This document shows positions 39,139 through 47,010 of a DNA stretch of 64,000 nucleotides, piece by piece. Where the stretch lies: assembly GCA_021813445.1 (NCBI GenBank), contig JAKAKP010000147.1:1-64000 (forward strand), read 5' to 3'. The position numbers were made by a program, and so were the translations under genes. The stretch comes from Deltaproteobacteria bacterium. GTDB taxonomy: Bacteria > Desulfobacterota > Desulfobaccia > Desulfobaccales > 0-14-0-80-60-11. How positions within the stretch are numbered: position 1 is the first letter of the stretch; each line of letters starts with the position of its first letter. A model generated the notes under the pieces. That model did not search any database. It was not told where the DNA came from and saw only the letters and a program-made list of their open reading frames with translations.

Positions 39139-39777
39139 TTATTTGCTCTGGCGCATTTTGTAGGCCAGGCCCATGAGGCGGTAGACGGAGGCGCCGGCCA
39201 GGGCGGCGATGTCTTCGGTGGAGAGGTGCTGGGGGATGGTGGCGTCGAAGAGGATGTTGGCCTCCGGGGAGAATTCCTCGTCGCCCCGCCAGAGGACGTG
39301 GGTCACGGGCACCAGGGGGAAGGCCGGGAAGGTGGCGGAGGCGTCGCCCTGGCTGCCGATGACGCCGCCCGCGGCCCCGGCCACCTTCAGGTAAAGGTCC
39401 AGGTCGTGGCCGAAGGTCTCCAGCAGGGGTTTCTTGGCCCGGGAGACGAACGCGGACCAGTAAAACCCGCCCTCCGGCACGTCCCGGAAGTCGATTTCCC
39501 GGCCGCTTAAGGGTTCGCCGGTGGTCCGGAGCAGGTAGTGGAGGATGAGAATCTGCTCGGTGAGGGGCAGCTCGGGCTGGCCCTCCGGGGGCAGGACTTT
39601 CACCTCCGGCCAGACGACCTGGCGGGGCTGGCCGAAGTATGGCACTACCAGCCACTCCCGGGTGTCCTGACAAAAATATTCGCAGCGGCTCAGGCCGGAG
39701 ATACGCTTGGGGTTTTTCTGCTGCAATTCGGCTACGGCCAGGGCTATAGCCGCCTTGTAATCGTCAATGCGGGGCAT
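39139..39777 (-). CDS. DUF3786 domain protein
   Basis: 212 residues from ATG 39777, with AAAGGAG just upstream; the longer open frame reads through a repeat. Contents: DDYKAAIALAVAELQQKNPK, the Cys-containing LSRCEYFCQDTREWLVVPYF, TEQILILHYLLRTTGEPLSG and a DHDL-type core DLDLYLKVAGAAGGVIGSQG. DUF3786 is found in anaerobes and often near corrinoid or metal enzymes; the reaction is unknown. A single gene facing away from the aro operon. Confidence 0.8.
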   Translation of the reverse strand: MPRIDDYKAAIALAVAELQQKNPKRISGLSRCEYFCQDTREWLVVPYFGQPRQVVWPEVKVLPPEGQPELPLTEQILILHYLLRTTGEPLSGREIDFRDVPEGGFYWSAFVSRAKKPLLETFGHDLDLYLKVAGAAGGVIGSQGDASATFPAFPLVPVTHVLWRGDEEFSPEANILFDATIPQHLSTEDIAALAGASVYRLMGLAYKMRQSK

Positions 39778-39955
39778 GGGGGCTCCTTTTTTGAGGGGAC
39801 AGGGACAGGGATCAGGGGGCAGGAAAAAGTGCTGAAGTAACCGCTTTTCCTGGCCCCTGGCCCCTGGCCCCTGATAGAGTAGCATAGGATAAGGGGTATA
39901 ACCCGCCGTTAGAGCTCTATTCCAAAACAATTTGAAAATATAGCATATTTTTTCC

Positions 39956-39984
39956 TTGACATGGAGGGGCGGATATTTTAAGTG
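39956..39984 (+). promoter_or_regulatory. Probable sigma-70 promoter of the aro operon
   Basis: TTGACA at 39956-39961, with an AT-rich segment TATTTTAAGTG at 39974-39984 where a -10 box would fall. The -10 match is weak at ideal spacing. It lies about 30-50 bases upstream of the leader peptide ATG. Confidence 0.45.
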
Positions 39985-40011
39985 TGAAGACTAAGGAGTC
40001 GAGGATCGCAA

Positions 40012-40101
40012 ATGTTGCAGCTTAGCTGGCGCCGGTATTTTTATTTTAGCTACTATTATTTTACCGGGCCGGAGTGCGCCTCGACTTTTAAAAGACCCTA
40101 A
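40012..40101 (+). CDS. Leader peptide for Tyr/Phe attenuation
   Basis: A 29-codon frame with GAGG seven bases before its ATG. Residues 9-17 read YFYFSYYYF: five Tyr and three Phe codons in a row of nine. This is the hallmark of a transcription-attenuation leader, read slowly when charged tRNA-Tyr or tRNA-Phe is scarce. It ends at TAA 40099-40101, between the two antiterminator arms, and precedes seven aromatic-pathway and associated genes. Confidence 0.85.
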   Translation: MLQLSWRRYFYFSYYYFTGPECASTFKRP

Positions 40102-40125
40102 ACAACCCAGAAAATCTTTTAAAAG
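40085..40125 (+). promoter_or_regulatory. Antiterminator arms of the aro attenuator
   Basis: CTTTTAAAAG occurs at 40085-40094 and again at 40116-40125. Because it is self-complementary, the first copy can pair with the second over ten bases. The second copy overlaps the 5' arm of the terminator, so the two structures exclude each other. A ribosome that reaches the leader stop would cover the first copy; one stalled at the Tyr/Phe codons (40036-40062) would leave it free. CGCCTCG (40077-40083) can also pair with CGAGGCG (40138-40144) in the terminator loop. Confidence 0.7.
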
Positions 40126-40161
40126 CCGTGGCGCAGGCGAGGCGACCACGGCTTTTTTTTT
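40121..40161 (+). terminator. Rho-independent terminator of the aro attenuator
   Basis: AAAAGCCGTGG (40121-40131) pairs with CCACGGCTTTT (40146-40156) around a 14-base loop and is followed by a run of T to 40161. It lies between the leader peptide and the first structural gene, so it acts as the regulated stop. Confidence 0.85.
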
Positions 40162-40218
40162 CGGCGGTGGCCGTCTCTTGGACCCGGATCGGGTCCGGCC
40201 GCGGACAAGGAGGGAGCA

Positions 40219-41016
40219 GTGATCGGCAAAAGCATTCGCCTGGAGCGCATTTTGAACCGGGAAACCGGCCGCACCGTGATCGTGCCCATGGATCACGGGG
40301 TGACGGTGGGTCCCATCGAGGGCCTCATTGACATGAAGACCACCGTCAACCAGGTGGCCAGCGGCGGGGCCAACGCCATTATCATTCACAAGGGCCTGGT
40401 GGAGGGCGGCCACCGCCGCCGGGGCAAGGACGTGGGGCTGATCGTCCACCTGTCCGGGTCCACGGCCCTGTCGCCCTTTCCCAACGCCAAAACCCTGGTG
40501 TGCACGGTGGAAGAAGCCATCAAGATCGGCGCGGACGGGGTGTCCATCCACGTCAACATCGGCAACGGCACGGAACGGGAGATGCTGGCCGACCTGGGCT
40601 GGGTGGCCCGGGAGTGCCGGGAATGGGGCATGCCCCTGGTGGCCATGATGTATCCCCGGGGGGAGAAGATCAAGGACGAATACGACGCGGGCGTGATCAT
40701 GCACGTGGCCCGCTTGGGTGCAGAACTGGGCGCGGACATTGTCAAGGTCTCCTATACCGGCTCGGTGGAGTCTTTCCGCCGGGTGGTGCGGGGCTGCCCG
40801 GTGCCGGTGGTCATCGCCGGAGGGCCGAAGATGGACTCCGACCGGGATATCCTGGAGATGGTGAAAGGGGCTATCGAGGCCGGTGGTGCCGGCGTGTCCA
40901 TCGGCCGCAACGTCTTCCAGCACCGGGACCCGAGCCGCATGGTGGGGGCCATCAGCCTCCTGGTGCATGAGAACAGCAGCGTGGATGAGGCGCTGTCGTT
41001 TTTGCAGGCGGTGTAA
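40219..41016 (+). CDS. 2-amino-3,7-dideoxy-D-threo-hept-6-ulosonate synthase (AroA')
   Basis: 265 residues from GTG 40219 (AAGGAGGGA upstream). A class I aldolase-fold enzyme of the DhnA/ADTH family: [38 protein letters not shown], the Schiff-base lysine in [19 protein letters not shown] and the phosphate loop [12 protein letters not shown]. It condenses a deoxy-ketofructose phosphate with aspartate semialdehyde, the archaeal-type entry to dehydroquinate that bypasses DAHP synthase. First structural gene of the aro operon. Confidence 0.88.
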
Positions 41017-41020
41017 TAAG

Positions 41021-42013
41021 ATGAAACAGCTATGGGTCAAAGTGGACCCCTGGGATAAGGAACTGGTCACCGCGGCGCTGGAGTCCGGCGCGGACGCGGT
41101 CTGGGTTCCCGAGGGCCGGGTGCAGGAGGTCAAGGCCCTGGGGTTGATCAAGGTGGTGGCCCCGGATGGGGACCTGGTCCCGGGGAAGGATGTCCAGGAG
41201 GTGGCCATCACCGGCATGGGCCAGGAAGAGGAGATCATCCGCCTCAGCCGCCAGGGTCCGGTGGTGGTCAGCACCCCGGACTGGACCGTCATTCCCCTGG
41301 AGAACCTGATCGCCCAGGGCGGCAACCTCTGGGTGGAAACCGGGGACCCGGACGCGGCCCGCACTTTTTTGGGGGTGCTGGAGAAAGGCGTGGACGGGTT
41401 GTTGGTCACCAGCCGGGACCCGGGGGTGATCAAAAAGGTCGCCCGCCTGGTCAAAGAGTCCTCGCCCCCGGTGGAGCTGGTCACGGCCAAAATCACCAAG
41501 GTGCGCGCCCTGGGGATGGGGGACCGGGTCTGCGTGGATACCTGCGCCAACATGGGGCTGGGGGAAGGCATGCTGGTGGGCAACTCCTCCGGGGGGCTCT
41601 TCCTGGTGCACGCCGAATCCCTGGAGAATCCCTACGTGTCGCCCCGGCCCTTTAGGGTCAACGCCGGACCGGTGCATGCCTATATCCGGGTGCCCGGGGG
41701 CAAGACCCGTTACCTGGGGGAACTGGCCGCGGGGGATGAGGTGCTCATTGTCAACCACCAGGGCCACACCTGGCCTGCAGTAGTGGGCCGGGTGAAGGTG
41801 GAGCGCCGGCCCCTGATGCTGGTGGCAGCAAGCGCTGCCGGCCAGGAGATCACCACCATCCTGCAAAACGCCGAGACCATCCGCCTGACGCGCCCCAACG
41901 GCGAGGCGGTATCCATCGTCACCCTGCAGCCTGGGGACGAAGTGTTGGTAGCCCTGGAAGCATCCGGCCGCCACTTCGGCCACAAGGTCCAGGAAACCAT
42001 CCTGGAGAAATGA
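41021..42013 (+). CDS. 3-dehydroquinate synthase II (AroB')
   Basis: 330 residues from ATG 41021, five bases after the previous stop. Matches the archaeal-type enzyme: LWVKVDPWDKELVTAALESG, DGLLVTSRDPGVIKKVARLV, VCVDTCANMGLGEGMLVGNS, and VNAGPVHAYIRVPGGKTRYL. It converts the ADTH product to 3-dehydroquinate by oxidative deamination and cyclisation. It forms a functional pair with AroA'. Confidence 0.9.
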   Translation: MKQLWVKVDPWDKELVTAALESGADAVWVPEGRVQEVKALGLIKVVAPDGDLVPGKDVQEVAITGMGQEEEIIRLSRQGPVVVSTPDWTVIPLENLIAQGGNLWVETGDPDAARTFLGVLEKGVDGLLVTSRDPGVIKKVARLVKESSPPVELVTAKITKVRALGMGDRVCVDTCANMGLGEGMLVGNSSGGLFLVHAESLENPYVSPRPFRVNAGPVHAYIRVPGGKTRYLGELAAGDEVLIVNHQGHTWPAVVGRVKVERRPLMLVAASAAGQEITTILQNAETIRLTRPNGEAVSIVTLQPGDEVLVALEASGRHFGHKVQETILEK

Positions 42014-42016
42014 GCC

Positions 42017-43102
42017 ATGACGGAAAAAGAGGAATTGCGCCAGCAGATCGACGCCTTGGACCGGGAACTGGTCACCCTGCTCAACCGCCGCCTGACCCTG
42101 GCCCAGGGCATCGGCCGCATCAAGAACCGTGAGGGCCAGCGCACCCTGGATTTCCAGCGGGAAGAAGGCGTCCTGGCGAACCTGATGCGCCTCAACCCCG
42201 GCCCTTTGAGCCAGCAGGCGTTAAAAAATATCTTCCGGGAAATTATCTCCGCGGCCCGGCAGATCCAAAGTCCTCTAAGCGTGGCCTTCCTGGGGCCGGA
42301 GGCCACCTTCTCCCACCTGGCAACCCTGAAAAAATTCGGCAGTTCTACCCGTTTCGGGCCGCTGCTGAGCATCCATGAGGTCTTTACGGAAGTGGAGAAA
42401 GGGAATTACGATTACGGAGTGGTGCCCATCGAGAACTCCACGGAAGGGGTGGTGAACGACACCCTGGACCACTTTGCAGAGACCGGTCTAAAAATCTGCG
42501 GGGAAATCTTTTTGGAGGTCTCCCACGATCTGGTGTCCAAGTCCGGACAGAGGCAGGATATCGAAGTGATCTACTCCCACCCCCAGGCCTACGGCCAGTG
42601 CCGCCGCTGGCTGGCGGGGCATCTCCCGGAAGTCCCCAACATCGAGGTGGCCTCTACCGGCATAGCCGCGCAAAAGGCCGCTAAAAACCCCAATGCCGCG
42701 GCCATTGCCAGCGCCGCGGCCGCTTCCTTGTATGACCTGCGGGTGGTGGAGCGCAGGATAGAAGACCATCCGGGGAACGTCACCCACTTTTTCGTCATCG
42801 GCCCGGAATCCCCCGGCCCCACCGGCAGGGACAAGACCTCCATCATCTTCGCGGTGGACAACATCCCGGGGGCGCTATACAAAACCCTGCAGCCCCTGGC
42901 CGAGCGGGGCCTCAATATGACCCGCATCGTCTCCCGGCCGGCCAAAAACGAGGCCTGGCGCTACCTCTTTTTTCTGGATCTCGACGGCCACCAGGAAGAC
43001 GCTCAGGTGCGGGAAGCCCTGGCCGAGATCGAAGCCCTGAGCGCCCATTTTCACCTCCTGGGCTCTTTCCCTCGGGCCGGAGGGGTGGAGAATCCCAGTT
43101 GA
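42017..43102 (+). CDS. pheA: Bifunctional chorismate mutase/prephenate dehydratase
   Basis: 361 residues in three domains: AroQ-type chorismate mutase (LRQQIDALDRELVTLLNRRL, 1-90), prephenate dehydratase (VAFLGPEATFSHLA, YGVVPIENSTEGVVNDTLD, GNVTHFFVIG) and a C-terminal ACT domain (NIPGALYKTLQPLAERGLNM). The Phe-binding motifs GALV and ESRP read GALY and VSRP, so feedback by Phe may be altered. It commits chorismate to phenylalanine, which fits the Phe codons of the leader. Four bases after AroB'. Confidence 0.92.
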   Translation: MTEKEELRQQIDALDRELVTLLNRRLTLAQGIGRIKNREGQRTLDFQREEGVLANLMRLNPGPLSQQALKNIFREIISAARQIQSPLSVAFLGPEATFSHLATLKKFGSSTRFGPLLSIHEVFTEVEKGNYDYGVVPIENSTEGVVNDTLDHFAETGLKICGEIFLEVSHDLVSKSGQRQDIEVIYSHPQAYGQCRRWLAGHLPEVPNIEVASTGIAAQKAAKNPNAAAIASAAAASLYDLRVVERRIEDHPGNVTHFFVIGPESPGPTGRDKTSIIFAVDNIPGALYKTLQPLAERGLNMTRIVSRPAKNEAWRYLFFLDLDGHQEDAQVREALAEIEALSAHFHLLGSFPRAGGVENPS

Positions 43103-43122
43103 AGACGTTTTTCTGCTTCCGG

Positions 43123-43244
43123 TTTTCTGTTTTCTGTTTTGATCCGATGTCTTGGCGTTTCAACTTTTCAACCCTGATCTTATGTCCGACAGGCCTGCTA
43201 TGATTCTTTCGAATGCAGAAAACAGAAAACAGAAAACAGAAAAC
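43123..43244. repeat. Inverted TTTTCTG/CAGAAAA heptamer repeats around the aroD start
   Basis: TTTTCTGTTTTCTGTTTT at 43123-43140 faces CAGAAAACAGAAAACAG at 43216-43244. The right arm is translated as part of the AroD N-terminus (ENRKQKTENK). The arms can pair over about 18 bases and would enclose the candidate aroD start codons. Confidence 0.65.
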
Positions 43245-43919
43245 AAGCCCCTCCGCATCTGTGTACCAGTAGTTGAAAGCAACGTCCACCGGGCCCGGAA
43301 CCTTTATCTACGGAGCGCGCGCCGGGGTTTCTGGACGGAGCTGCGGTTGGATTACCTGGAGCAGCCGGATCTCAAGCGCCTTTTGCGCACCCGGCCCGGC
43401 AAGGTCATTGCCACCAACCGCCTGGCGAGCGAAGGGGGGCAGTGGCGGGGGGGCGAAGCCGACCGCCGTCTGATTTTGGAGGAGGCCCTGGCTCTGGGCG
43501 CGGACTGCCTGGACCTGGAACTGGCCGCGGACGCGGCCTGGCGGCGGGAACTCTGGAGCCGCCGGGGCGCGACGCAAATCATCCTCTCCTGGCATGATTT
43601 CTCCGGCACTCCCGGGGCTGACCGGCTGGACGGGGTGTTCCAGGAGATGCTGGCCGGGGAGGCCGATATTCTCAAGATCGTCACCCAGGCCCGGGAGCCT
43701 GCGGACAATCTCCGGGTGCTCTCCCTCATTCCCCAGGCCAAAGCGGCGGGCCGGGAGATCATCGCCTTCTGCATGGGACCCCTGGGGAAATGGTCCCGGG
43801 TGGTGGCCCCGAATTTGGGGAGCTTCCTGACCTTCGCGCCCTTCAGCAAAAAAGGGGCGTCCGCGCCGGGGCAATTGACGGTGAATGAGATCAGGCGGCT
43901 GTGGAAGATGTTGAAATGA
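43200..43919 (+). CDS. aroD: Type I 3-dehydroquinate dehydratase
   Basis: 239 residues from ATG 43200. Conserved parts: RICVPVVESNVHRA at the first strand, ELRLDYLEQPD with the Glu-Arg pair, the catalytic His in ILSWHDFSGTP and the Schiff-base Lys in ADILKIVTQA, then FCMGPLGKWSRVV. The first about 20 residues (ILSNAENRKQKTENKP) come from the heptamer repeat and precede the normal enzyme start, so the repeat seems to have replaced the original 5' end. An ATG at 43182 is possible too. It makes 3-dehydroshikimate. Confidence 0.88.
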   Translation: MILSNAENRKQKTENKPLRICVPVVESNVHRARNLYLRSARRGFWTELRLDYLEQPDLKRLLRTRPGKVIATNRLASEGGQWRGGEADRRLILEEALALGADCLDLELAADAAWRRELWSRRGATQIILSWHDFSGTPGADRLDGVFQEMLAGEADILKIVTQAREPADNLRVLSLIPQAKAAGREIIAFCMGPLGKWSRVVAPNLGSFLTFAPFSKKGASAPGQLTVNEIRRLWKMLK

Positions 43920-43926
43920 AAAAATT

Positions 43927-44745
43927 ATGATCAACGGCCATACCAAAATCTACGGCATCCTGGGGCGGCCGGTGGCTCACTCCCTGAGCCCGGCCATGCA
44001 CAACGCCGCGTTCGGCAAGCTGGGCATCAACGCGGTGTATGTGCCTTTTCCGGTGACCGATCTGCCCCAGGCGGTGGCGGGCCTCCGGGGCCTGGCCATC
44101 GGGGGGGTGAGCGTCACCATCCCCTTCAAAGAAGAAATCATGCCCCTGCTGGACGAAATAGACCCCCTGGCGGCCCGCATGGGCGCGGTGAACACCGCGG
44201 TCAACCGGGACGGCCGGCTGAGCGGCTACAACACCGACTGGCTGGGCGCGGTCACCGCACTCAAGGCACAAACTGCCATTGCCGGGGAGCATGTTCTTCT
44301 TTTGGGGGCCGGAGGCGCGGCCCGGGCCATTGCCTTCGGCATCCTGGAAAACGGGGGCAAGGTCACCATCACCGACATGGACGCGCCCCGGGCCGAGACC
44401 CTGGCCCGGGAACTGGCCGTGGAGGCCGTACCTTTAAAGGCCCTGGAGCAGTGTCCCGCGTCCATCCTGATTAACGCCACGCCCGTGGGCATGGCCCCGG
44501 ACCTGCACGGCCTGCCCGTGGAACCCGAATTGCTGCACCGCTTCACCCTGGTGATGGACATCGTCTACCGGCCGCTGCTAACCCGGCTGCTGCGGGAGGC
44601 CCAGGCCCGGGGCTGCCGCATCATCGACGGCCTGCAGATGCTCATCCACCAGGCCACGGCCCAGTTTGAGCTCTGGACCGGCCGGAGCGCGCCCCTGGAC
44701 ACCATGTCCCGGGCCGCGTACGCAGCCCTGGAGGAGGAGGGGTGA
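43927..44745 (+). CDS. aroE: Shikimate dehydrogenase
   Basis: 272 residues. Substrate site VAHSLSPAMHNAAFGKLG, catalytic Lys in VSVTIPFKEEI, Asp in YNTDWLGAV, NADP-binding loop LLLGAGGAARAIAFGI, and NATPVGMAPD and MLIHQATAQFELW near the end. Reduces 3-dehydroshikimate to shikimate. Seven bases after aroD. Confidence 0.93.
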   Translation: MINGHTKIYGILGRPVAHSLSPAMHNAAFGKLGINAVYVPFPVTDLPQAVAGLRGLAIGGVSVTIPFKEEIMPLLDEIDPLAARMGAVNTAVNRDGRLSGYNTDWLGAVTALKAQTAIAGEHVLLLGAGGAARAIAFGILENGGKVTITDMDAPRAETLARELAVEAVPLKALEQCPASILINATPVGMAPDLHGLPVEPELLHRFTLVMDIVYRPLLTRLLREAQARGCRIIDGLQMLIHQATAQFELWTGRSAPLDTMSRAAYAALEEEG

Positions 44746-44880: not shown

Positions 44881-45510
44881 ATGACTTACTTTAAAACAGT
44901 TCTTCATGGGCCATCGGCCCACCCGCAAAGCATAAAAAGAATCGTAGGGGCGGGCGTCTCGCCCGCCCTGATAATCCGCACAGGCTGGAAAGCCTGTGCT
45001 ACCGCTCAGGAACTTTTCGGAGAAGAGGAATCGAGTCTAGTCATCACCCGGGCCGCGCCTGCGGACGCCCAGGAGATCCTGGACCTGCAGAAGCTGGCTT
45101 ATCAAAGCGAGGCGGCCATTTACCAGGACTATACGATTCCGCCCCTGACGCAGACGCTGCCGGAAATCGAACTCGAACTGCAAACCCAGGTCTTCCTCAA
45201 GGCCGTGGCCGCAGGCCGGATCGTGGGCTCGGTGCGGGGGTATCTCCAGGACGGGACCGGTTTCATCGCCCGGCTGATCGTCCACCCGGCGTATCAAAAC
45301 CAGGGGCTGGGCCAGGAATTGATGGGAGCCATCGAGGGCTGCTTCCCCCAGGCCGGACGGTTTGCATTGTTCACCGGCCACCTCAGTGAGCGCAATCTCT
45401 ATCTTTATCAGAAATTGGGCTACCAGCGGGTGGGAGCAGAGCCGGTTTCAGAGAAACTGACTATGATCTTTCTGGAGAAGAGAGTTCCAATTAATTGCGG
45501 CCAGTCATAA
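44881..45510 (+). CDS. GNAT-family N-acetyltransferase with repeat-derived N-terminus
   Basis: 209 residues. A GNAT domain runs from about residue 52: LVITRAAPADAQEILDLQKL, then FIARLIVHPAYQNQGLGQEL with the acetyl-CoA loop (Q/R-x-x-G-x-G/A), LFTGHLSERNLYLYQKLGYQ. The first about 50 residues are translated from a dispersed repeat (VGAGVSPALIIRTGWKACAT) and are unlikely to be native; no later in-frame start is visible before the domain. Substrate unknown. It sits inside the aro operon. Confidence 0.7.
   Translation: MTYFKTVLHGPSAHPQSIKRIVGAGVSPALIIRTGWKACATAQELFGEEESSLVITRAAPADAQEILDLQKLAYQSEAAIYQDYTIPPLTQTLPEIELELQTQVFLKAVAAGRIVGSVRGYLQDGTGFIARLIVHPAYQNQGLGQELMGAIEGCFPQAGRFALFTGHLSERNLYLYQKLGYQRVGAEPVSEKLTMIFLEKRVPINCGQS
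44944..45004. repeat. Dispersed repeat R4 (GGGCGGGCGTCTCGCCCGCCC module)
   Basis: A short GC hairpin (GGCGGGCGTCTCGCCCGCC) followed by a second hairpin (CACAGGCTGGAAAGCCTGTG). Both modules recur, rearranged, at about 55917-56030. It is read through as coding sequence by the acetyltransferase gene. Confidence 0.55.
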
Positions 45511-45744: not shown

Positions 45745-47010
45745 ATGCCCCAGAAAATCAAACCCACTGACAAGATTCAGGCCACCCTCACCCTGCCCGG
45801 CTCCAAGAGCTACACCCACCGGGCCCTGGTGGCCGCGGCTTTGGCTGCGGGGGAGAGCCTTCTCACCAACGCCCTGGATGCCGAAGACACCCGGTACACC
45901 GCCCAGGCCCTGGCGCAGATGGGGGCCGGCATCGACTGGCGGCAAGAGGGGGTGCGGGTGCAGGGGACCGGGGGCCGCTGGCAGCCGGTGACGGGCCCCA
46001 TTTACCTGGGCAACTCCGGCACCTCCATGCGTTTCCTCACCGCGCTGGCGGCCCTGGGCCAGGGCGAATACCGCCTTACCGGCAGCCCCCGGCTCTGTGA
46101 GCGGCCCCAGAGCGAGTTGCTGGCGGCCCTGGCCCAATTGGGAGCAACAGCCGTTTCCGAAAGGGGGGACGGCTGCCCCCCGGTGCTGGTGCAAGGGGGA
46201 CTCCAGGGCGGCAAGGCCCGGCTCTCCGGGTCCATCAGCAGCCAGTATCTTTCGGCCCTCCTGTTCATTGCCCCCCTGGCCCCCCAGGGGGTGGAAATCG
46301 AGATCACCGGGGACCTTGTCTCCCGGCCTTATGTGGACCTGACCCTGGACGTCCTGGGGGATTTCGGTATTTCCTACTACCGGGAAAGCTACCGCTATTT
46401 CCAGGTTCCCGGGGGGCAGTGCTACCTGCCCCAGGATTACGCCATCGAGGCGGACGCGTCCAGCGCCTCCTATTTTTGGGCTGCGGCTGCGCTCACCCGG
46501 GGCCGGGTGACCATTACCAACCTGACGCCGGATTCCTGCCAGGGGGACGTGGGTTTCGTGAAGGTTTTGGAGCGCCTGGGCTGCCGGGTCGACTCCGGCG
46601 CCGAGGGCCTCACGGTGGCAGGCGGACCTCTTAAGGGCCTGGCAGTGGACATGGCCGCCATGCCGGACCTGGTCCCCACCCTGGCGGTGGTGGCCGCGTT
46701 CGCTGAAGGGGAGACGGTGATCACCGGTGCGGCCCACCTGCGCCACAAGGAATCGGACCGCCTGGCCGCAGTGGCTGCCGAGCTGGGCAAGATGGGGATA
46801 AAGGTCCGGGAGACCGCGGACGGCCTGGTCATTACCGGCGGGCAACCCCAGGGCGCGGAGATCGACACCTACCAGGACCACCGCATCGCCATGAGTTTCG
46901 CGGTGGCCGGACTCAGGGCTCCGGGCACGGCCATCCGGGACCCGGACTGCGTGGCCAAGTCTTTTCCCGAATTCTGGGATTTTTTTGCTAAACTCCGGGA
47001 AGATGACTGA
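45745..47010 (+). CDS. aroA: 3-phosphoshikimate 1-carboxyvinyltransferase (EPSP synthase)
   Basis: 421 residues. Signatures: LPGSKSYTHRALVAAALAAG, GNSGTSMRFLTALAALGQG, IEADASSASYFWAAAALTRG, LRHKESDRLAAVAAELGKMG and YQDHRIAMSFAVAGLRAPG. It joins shikimate 3-phosphate and PEP. The last aro gene here; kinase, chorismate synthase and prephenate dehydrogenase are not in the window. Confidence 0.95.
   Translation: MPQKIKPTDKIQATLTLPGSKSYTHRALVAAALAAGESLLTNALDAEDTRYTAQALAQMGAGIDWRQEGVRVQGTGGRWQPVTGPIYLGNSGTSMRFLTALAALGQGEYRLTGSPRLCERPQSELLAALAQLGATAVSERGDGCPPVLVQGGLQGGKARLSGSISSQYLSALLFIAPLAPQGVEIEITGDLVSRPYVDLTLDVLGDFGISYYRESYRYFQVPGGQCYLPQDYAIEADASSASYFWAAAALTRGRVTITNLTPDSCQGDVGFVKVLERLGCRVDSGAEGLTVAGGPLKGLAVDMAAMPDLVPTLAVVAAFAEGETVITGAAHLRHKESDRLAAVAAELGKMGIKVRETADGLVITGGQPQGAEIDTYQDHRIAMSFAVAGLRAPGTAIRDPDCVAKSFPEFWDFFAKLREDD

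Follow-up and report, generated by a model that had tools for sequence, protein, structure and literature searches.

Some sulfate-reducing bacteria and their relatives enter the aromatic pathway through archaeal-type enzymes, and the locus described here raises the question of how the genes for such a pathway are controlled. In the window (the whole stretch of DNA that was analysed, 64,000 nucleotides in length), genes that make phenylalanine and the common aromatic precursor, as identified by NCBIfam matches, are preceded by a short reading frame rich in Tyr and Phe codons and by a terminator, an arrangement in which a sequence-only reading had recognized the logic of trp/phe-type attenuation. 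That proposal is supported computationally by a conserved codon run, an excess of such runs on the sense strand, strand-swap tests and covariation, and the best explanation of the locus is a ribosome-mediated transcription attenuator that would read the supply of charged tRNA-Tyr and tRNA-Phe (probability roughly 0.92). The model offers a testable account of aromatic-pathway control in these organisms, and extends the known leader peptides by a family with codons for Tyr, Phe and, in most members, Trp.

In enteric bacteria, ribosome-mediated attenuators have been described for the trp, pheA, his, leu, thr, ilvGMEDA and ilvBN operons (PMC1183508). The aro element resembles them in having a leader peptide with regulatory codons, mutually exclusive protector, antiterminator and terminator hairpins, and a biosynthetic operon downstream; it differs in that Tyr and Phe, and often Trp, are read together, that the codon run forms the protector loop, and that the operon is headed by archaeal-type aroA' and aroB'. 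The likeness is one of design, and no sequence relation to enteric pheL or trpL is claimed. Leaders that respond to several amino acids, such as those of ilv and thr, are already known. A three-hairpin attenuator with leader peptide, anti-antiterminator, antiterminator and terminator precedes ilvBNC in Corynebacterium glutamicum, which belongs to another phylum, where it serves branched-chain amino acids and has a single terminator (PMC11857589). An earlier precedent is a 2005 paper whose Table 7, drawing on the Merino database of predicted attenuators, lists a putative attenuator before the Desulfovibrio vulgaris genes aroA'>aroB'>aroQ-pheA>aroF>tyrA>[trp operon] (PMC1173090). This prediction shares with the present one a homologous operon head, the same broad lineage and a terminator/antiterminator pair; the paper makes no use of the word "leader", and neither a leader peptide nor its codons, a protector or the phylogenetic spread is reported in it (PMC1173090). 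A 2004 reconstruction of delta-proteobacterial regulation mentions neither leader peptides nor aromatic amino acids (PMC545781), and no description of a leader peptide at an aroA' operon was found in open-access papers; the mechanism would be a classical one, and the leader family essentially undescribed.

Putative leader peptide gene and pairing strands in the window

The putative leader peptide gene lies on the forward strand at 40012-40101, from the ATG at 40012-40014 to the TAA at 40099-40101, and specifies the 29 residues MLQLSWRRYFYFSYYYFTGPECASTFKRP; homologous aromatic-rich leaders are found 5' of most AroA' genes examined. Its codons 9-17 (40036-40062) read Tyr-Phe-Tyr-Phe-Ser-Tyr-Tyr-Tyr-Phe, with Tyr at codons 9, 11, 14, 15 and 16 and Phe at codons 10, 12 and 17, that is, eight Tyr/Phe codons within a run of nine; these presumed regulatory codons, which also form the loop of a protector hairpin, are supported as such by the codon changes in 17 relatives considered below. 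Every element named in the sequence-only reading, the 29-residue leader with YFYFSYYYF included, was found in its place, and a Trp codon at leader position 6 (40027-40029), outside the run, had been overlooked.

The leader is probably transcribed from a promoter with a -35-like TTGACA at 39956-39961 on the forward strand, an element present at the same place in Desulfobaccales relatives, and with a poor -10, TAAGTG, at 39979-39984, 17 nt beyond it. A sigma-70 scan gave this TTGACA no score, and the promoter is for that reason treated as predicted. Upstream, on the reverse strand, a 263-aa ORF (39139-39930) has no NCBIfam match, with its 5' portion falling within CAGGGGC/GCCCCTG repeats at about 39798-39875.

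Downstream of the codon run, the sequence-only reading had pointed to two copies of a pairable decamer, the second overlapping the 5' arm of a terminator. Both copies of CTTTTAAAAG are present, at 40085-40094 and 40116-40125, and the second does overlap the terminator 5' arm AAAAGCCGTGG (40121-40131), which pairs with CCACGGCTTTT (40146-40156) around a loop at 40132-40145; with its T-run at 40153-40161, this forward-strand intrinsic terminator (40121-40161) has homologues 3' of the leaders of relatives. The decamers belong to a longer antiterminator pairing, since the inverted repeat that contains them spans 21 nt: its 5' arm, strand 2a (TGCGCCTCGACTTTTAAAAGA, 40075-40095), and its 3' arm, strand 3 (TCTTTTAAAAGCCGTGGCGCA, 40115-40135), which overlaps the terminator 5' arm, are 90% complementary and form 19 bp extending to TGCGCC/GGCGCA; within 39780-40230 no other inverted repeat reaches 12 nt. 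Both arms are further supported by a swap test and a pair count across relatives.

A fourth strand, unnamed in the sequence-only reading, lies 5' of the codon run and supplies the protector, the pairing of strands 1 and 2. Strand 1a, GTCGAGG (39998-40004), is the Shine-Dalgarno region of the leader and is complementary to CCTCGAC at 40079-40085, inside the antiterminator arm, with which it pairs in the predicted strand 1 x 2 duplex of the window; GTCGAG recurs in most Desulfobaccales leaders. Strand 1b, CTGGC-G-CCGGTA (40026-40037), forms the 5' arm of the protector hairpin through 11 bp with its 3' arm, strand 2b (TACCGGGCCGG, 40062-40072), a pairing likewise supported by the swap test. The window carries a single terminator. 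Between it and the aroA' Shine-Dalgarno sequence, a perfect 7-bp hairpin, GGACCCG-GAT-CGGGTCC (40180-40196), lacks a T-run, and similar hairpins are present in some close relatives.

The positions that a ribosome would take relative to the antiterminator 5' arm are the geometry that attenuation requires. With assumed values for its footprint, a ribosome that has reached the stop codon would extend over about 40081-40111 and would mask the first decamer, as had been claimed, and the last Phe codon of the run ends at 40062, so that a ribosome holding it in the A site would reach to about 40074 and leave the antiterminator 5' arm free.

Leaders and alternative pairings among AroA' relatives

AroA' homologues were drawn both from genome contigs and from whole genomes representing the family and the phylum, and comparison groups were set by AroA' identity, not by named taxonomy. 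The genome of the window comprises 4.18 Mb in 166 contigs, and its closest AroA' relatives belong to Syntrophobacterales/Deltaproteobacteria MAGs and Desulfobacca acetoxidans, pointing to a position within or close to Desulfobaccaceae. Covarying leaders 5' of AroA', which the sequence-only reading had suggested looking for in related genomes, are there: an aromatic-rich leader with a terminator was called by script upstream of 105 of 155 homologues, a few of these calls being weak, and both the Tyr/Phe run and the alternative pairings are clearly conserved. Four doubtful calls (L037, L046, L131 and L167) were excluded from most statistics, and three true leaders missed by the script (L024, L032 and L061) were recognized by eye. 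The combination of leader and terminator extends through Desulfobaccales, Desulfobacterales and Desulfofervidaceae to distantly related families within the phylum. ORFs with at least five Y, F or W in 10 residues were present on the sense strand of 109 of 148 upstream regions, on the opposite strand of 27 of 148, and in 10% of dinucleotide shuffles.

Across relatives, conservation is confined to the aromatic run and the segments that pair. The peptide ends differ between groups (TGPECASTFKR, GLPGVR, ACGREL) while the run is constant, and in 17 Desulfobaccales leaders with the motif xYFSYYYF the seven aromatic columns vary only between TAT and TAC or between Tyr and Phe. Since the Tyr/Phe columns vary almost exclusively between synonymous codons or between Tyr and Phe and the remaining peptide differs, it is codon identity and RNA pairing that are kept, and not a peptide. 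The claim that Tyr and Phe are sensed at once holds as far as both occur in all 101 leaders compared, and falls short in that 75 of them also contain Trp (inside the run in 62), as does codon 6 of the window leader; with Y, F and W present in those 75, all three aromatic amino acids are probably monitored across the family, the response to each being predicted from codon content only.

On a FastTree phylogeny of AroA', leader presence requires 8 changes, compared with 34.6 when labels are shuffled, a difference to which near-copies contribute; the label is clustered, in a manner that makes gain indistinguishable from loss. Such clustering suggests that the control element is old and has been passed on vertically. 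AroA' genes without a detectable leader (L026, L047, L057, L129, L136, L139 and the f28 family, namely L171, L172, L174, L175 and L177-L180) are apparent losses, or lineages that never possessed one; two of these loci, L047 and L057, have an altered gene order, with pheA between aroA' and aroB'. Two genomes (G060, with L160 and L168, and G291, with L158 and L165) carry two AroA' copies each, with an aromatic leader at one only.

The pairings themselves were examined by a swap test, in which duplex energies of strand 2 (after the run) with strand 3 (stop codon to terminator loop) were compared for true and swapped partners. In three groups the self/swapped antiterminator energies were -30.6/-28.2, -26.6/-22.5 and -38.2/-30.5 kcal/mol, and in each group none of 5000 permutations was as good, relatedness being only partly corrected. 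With the same partial correction, the protector (strand 1 with strand 2) preferred its own partner at 0/5000 in the two larger groups, including Desulfobaccales, and showed no significant preference in the small distant group (479/5000); in relatives, as in the window, its loop is the aromatic run. An alignment of 39 sequences from the middle identity class shows two-sided changes at 10 antiterminator and 8 terminator pairs, counts that exceed shuffled and slid controls. In Desulfobaccales the antiterminator is nearly invariant, with four two-sided pairs and little covariation; pairs in that alignment were counted for the antiterminator only, the hairpin columns being misaligned by gaps. An RNA model (R1) built from Desulfobacterales, with no Desulfobaccales sequence, found the window element as its best match in the 4.18-Mb genome, at 30.9 bits. 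Its second match (L194, 28.8 bits) lacks an aromatic leader and is a terminator of the ordinary kind ahead of a gatB-like ORF, and the model was therefore dropped for the wider search.

Folding, proposed mechanism and competing explanations

The sequence-only reading had also proposed folding the RNA with and without a ribosome block, and the outcome depends on how far transcription has proceeded. When ribosome blocks are applied with strand 4, the terminator 3' arm, already present, the terminator wins at equilibrium in nearly every state; full-terminator folding was thus uninformative as a readout and was replaced by folding of the ribosome-free RNA only, up to the base before strand 4. Under these conditions a stalled ribosome leaves strand 3 sequestered at 0.73, and one that has reached the stop codon at 0.41; the stalled value is the higher in 83 of 84 loci, and shuffling strand 2 as a control gives 0.54. 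In the window, a predicted -24 to -30 kcal/mol for the antiterminator compares with -8 once the ribosome is at the stop codon. Because the terminator wins once strand 4 is present, the choice between the two structures would have to be made kinetically, which is the norm for attenuators. In folds of the untranslated leader without strand 4, the protector was not seen to win over the antiterminator.

The locus thus combines a short ORF whose codon run matches amino acids of the downstream operon, an intrinsic terminator between leader and first gene (40121-40161, covarying in relatives), an antiterminator exclusive with it whose 5' arm is predicted to be masked at the stop codon and free at the regulatory codons, and an upstream 1:2 pairing seen in two of the three groups. 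From these parts the following mechanism can be proposed. Transcription would start near 39990. When Tyr and Phe are plentiful, the ribosome would cross codons 9-17, reach the stop codon at 40099 and cover the antiterminator 5' arm (40075-40095), so that strand 3 would still be unpaired as strand 4 emerges; the terminator hairpin (40121-40156) would then form and transcription would end before aroA'. When either amino acid is short, the ribosome would stall within 40036-40062, breaking the protector hairpin whose loop is the run, and 40075-40095, left uncovered, could pair with 40115-40135 ahead of the synthesis of strand 4; the antiterminator would block the terminator, and transcription would continue into aroA'-aroB'-pheA, probably into aroD-aroE as well and perhaps as far as aroA. 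In a leader that is not translated, the 5' strand (GTCGAGG and 40026-40037) could pair with strand 2 and favor termination. The aromatic genes would thus probably be switched on only when Tyr or Phe runs short.

Three other explanations were weighed against attenuation by tRNA charging. The leader peptide itself could stall the ribosome on a free ligand, as in nascent-peptide arrest of the TnaC or ErmC type; stalling by a run of hydrophobic aromatic residues in the exit tunnel is conceivable, and the terminator and antiterminator would respond identically. Arrest peptides, however, need defined residues, and conserved stall-site residues were not found in these leaders, where Tyr and Phe interchange, Trp comes and goes, the run varies in length, flanking residues differ between groups, and RNA pairing accounts for the C-terminal residues; peptide arrest is accordingly very improbable. 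We give just as little credence to a constitutive terminator or transcription-unit boundary, with the aroA' promoter downstream and an aromatic ORF that simply reflects A+T-rich DNA. Chance Phe codons do arise in T-rich DNA, and the opposite strands that pass the ORF filter illustrate this, but the sense-strand excess, the frame-specific codon conservation, the strand-swap results and the covariation all speak against it, as does the distance of just 58 nt from the end of the T-run to aroA' in the window.

The least probable explanation is that the same terminator is operated by another sensor, the ORF being merely co-transcribed. T-boxes, metabolite riboswitches and RNA-binding proteins do control aromatic operons in other phyla; in this case, however, no family in Rfam 15 (which would include a T-box or other catalogued regulator) matches the element at the gathering threshold, a permissive scan returned chance-level matches only (best E 0.011, a plant miRNA family on the inverted repeat, on both strands), and there is no room for a sensor domain between the run and the terminator.

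Tandem terminators in relatives and the genes downstream

A second terminator, a few nucleotides after the first, is present in 46 of the 67 leader loci whose AroA' identity falls in the middle class (64-83%), namely L022, L023, L029, L041 and 42 others. The 3' strand of the first terminator and the 5' strand of the second (4 x 5) can pair at -17.7 kcal/mol versus -11.9 for the mirror pairing 3 x 6, the former being stronger in 43 of the 46 and almost as strong as either terminator stem. Among 24 non-redundant loci, 4 x 5 preferred its own partner (0/5000) and the control 3 x 6 showed no preference (1290/5000), a difference that neither shared hairpin ancestry nor mere relatedness explains well. 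In folds that stop short of strand 6, strand 5 is sequestered at 0.84 with strand 4 free and at 0.27 with strand 4 occupied. One strand 5 position is usually a G, which pairs with a C of strand 4 and only wobbles with a U of strand 6; its single-site covariation (Fisher p 0.0016) involves too few independent events to survive phylogeny. These observations suggest a relay, for which we judge the odds to be about even, in which pairings 1:2, 3:4 and 5:6 (both terminators formed, off) would alternate with 2:3 and 4:5 (on), so that one leader peptide would disarm two terminators in series. If true, this would be a simple RNA design with one sensor driving two terminators, of which no description was found in a limited literature search.

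As to the genes that the window attenuator would reach, all are on the forward strand: aroA' (2-amino-3,7-dideoxy-D-threo-hept-6-ulosonate synthase, 40219-41016; TIGR01949, 392 bits, cut-off 299), aroB' (3-dehydroquinate synthase II, 41018-42013; NF002627, 480 bits, cut-off 392), pheA (chorismate mutase/prephenate dehydratase, 42017-43102; NF008865, 276 bits, cut-off 219), aroD (type I 3-dehydroquinate dehydratase, 43200-43919; TIGR01093, 139.9 bits, just over the cut-off of 139.3), aroE (shikimate dehydrogenase, 43927-44745; NF001319, 307 bits, cut-off 252) and aroA (3-phosphoshikimate 1-carboxyvinyltransferase, 45745-47010; TIGR01356, 465 bits, cut-off 287). The order aroA'-aroB'-pheA-(aroD)-aroE-aroA is repeated in relatives. 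Joint control of all six, as the sequence-only reading had it, is best supported for the tightly packed aroA', aroB' and pheA, the attenuator's foremost predicted targets, and probably extends to aroD-aroE; for aroA it is a guess, because a GNAT ORF (44881-45510) and gaps of 135 and 234 nt separate that gene from aroE. In this genome tyrA and the trpC region are carried by contigs other than that of the window, and no convincing aromatic or Trp-rich leader was found near tyrA or the trpC-containing cluster. Between pheA and the start of aroD, a 19-nt perfect inverted repeat of TTTTCTG units (43122-43140 and 43226-43244) overlaps the aroD start region, and could represent a hairpin or a small insertion.
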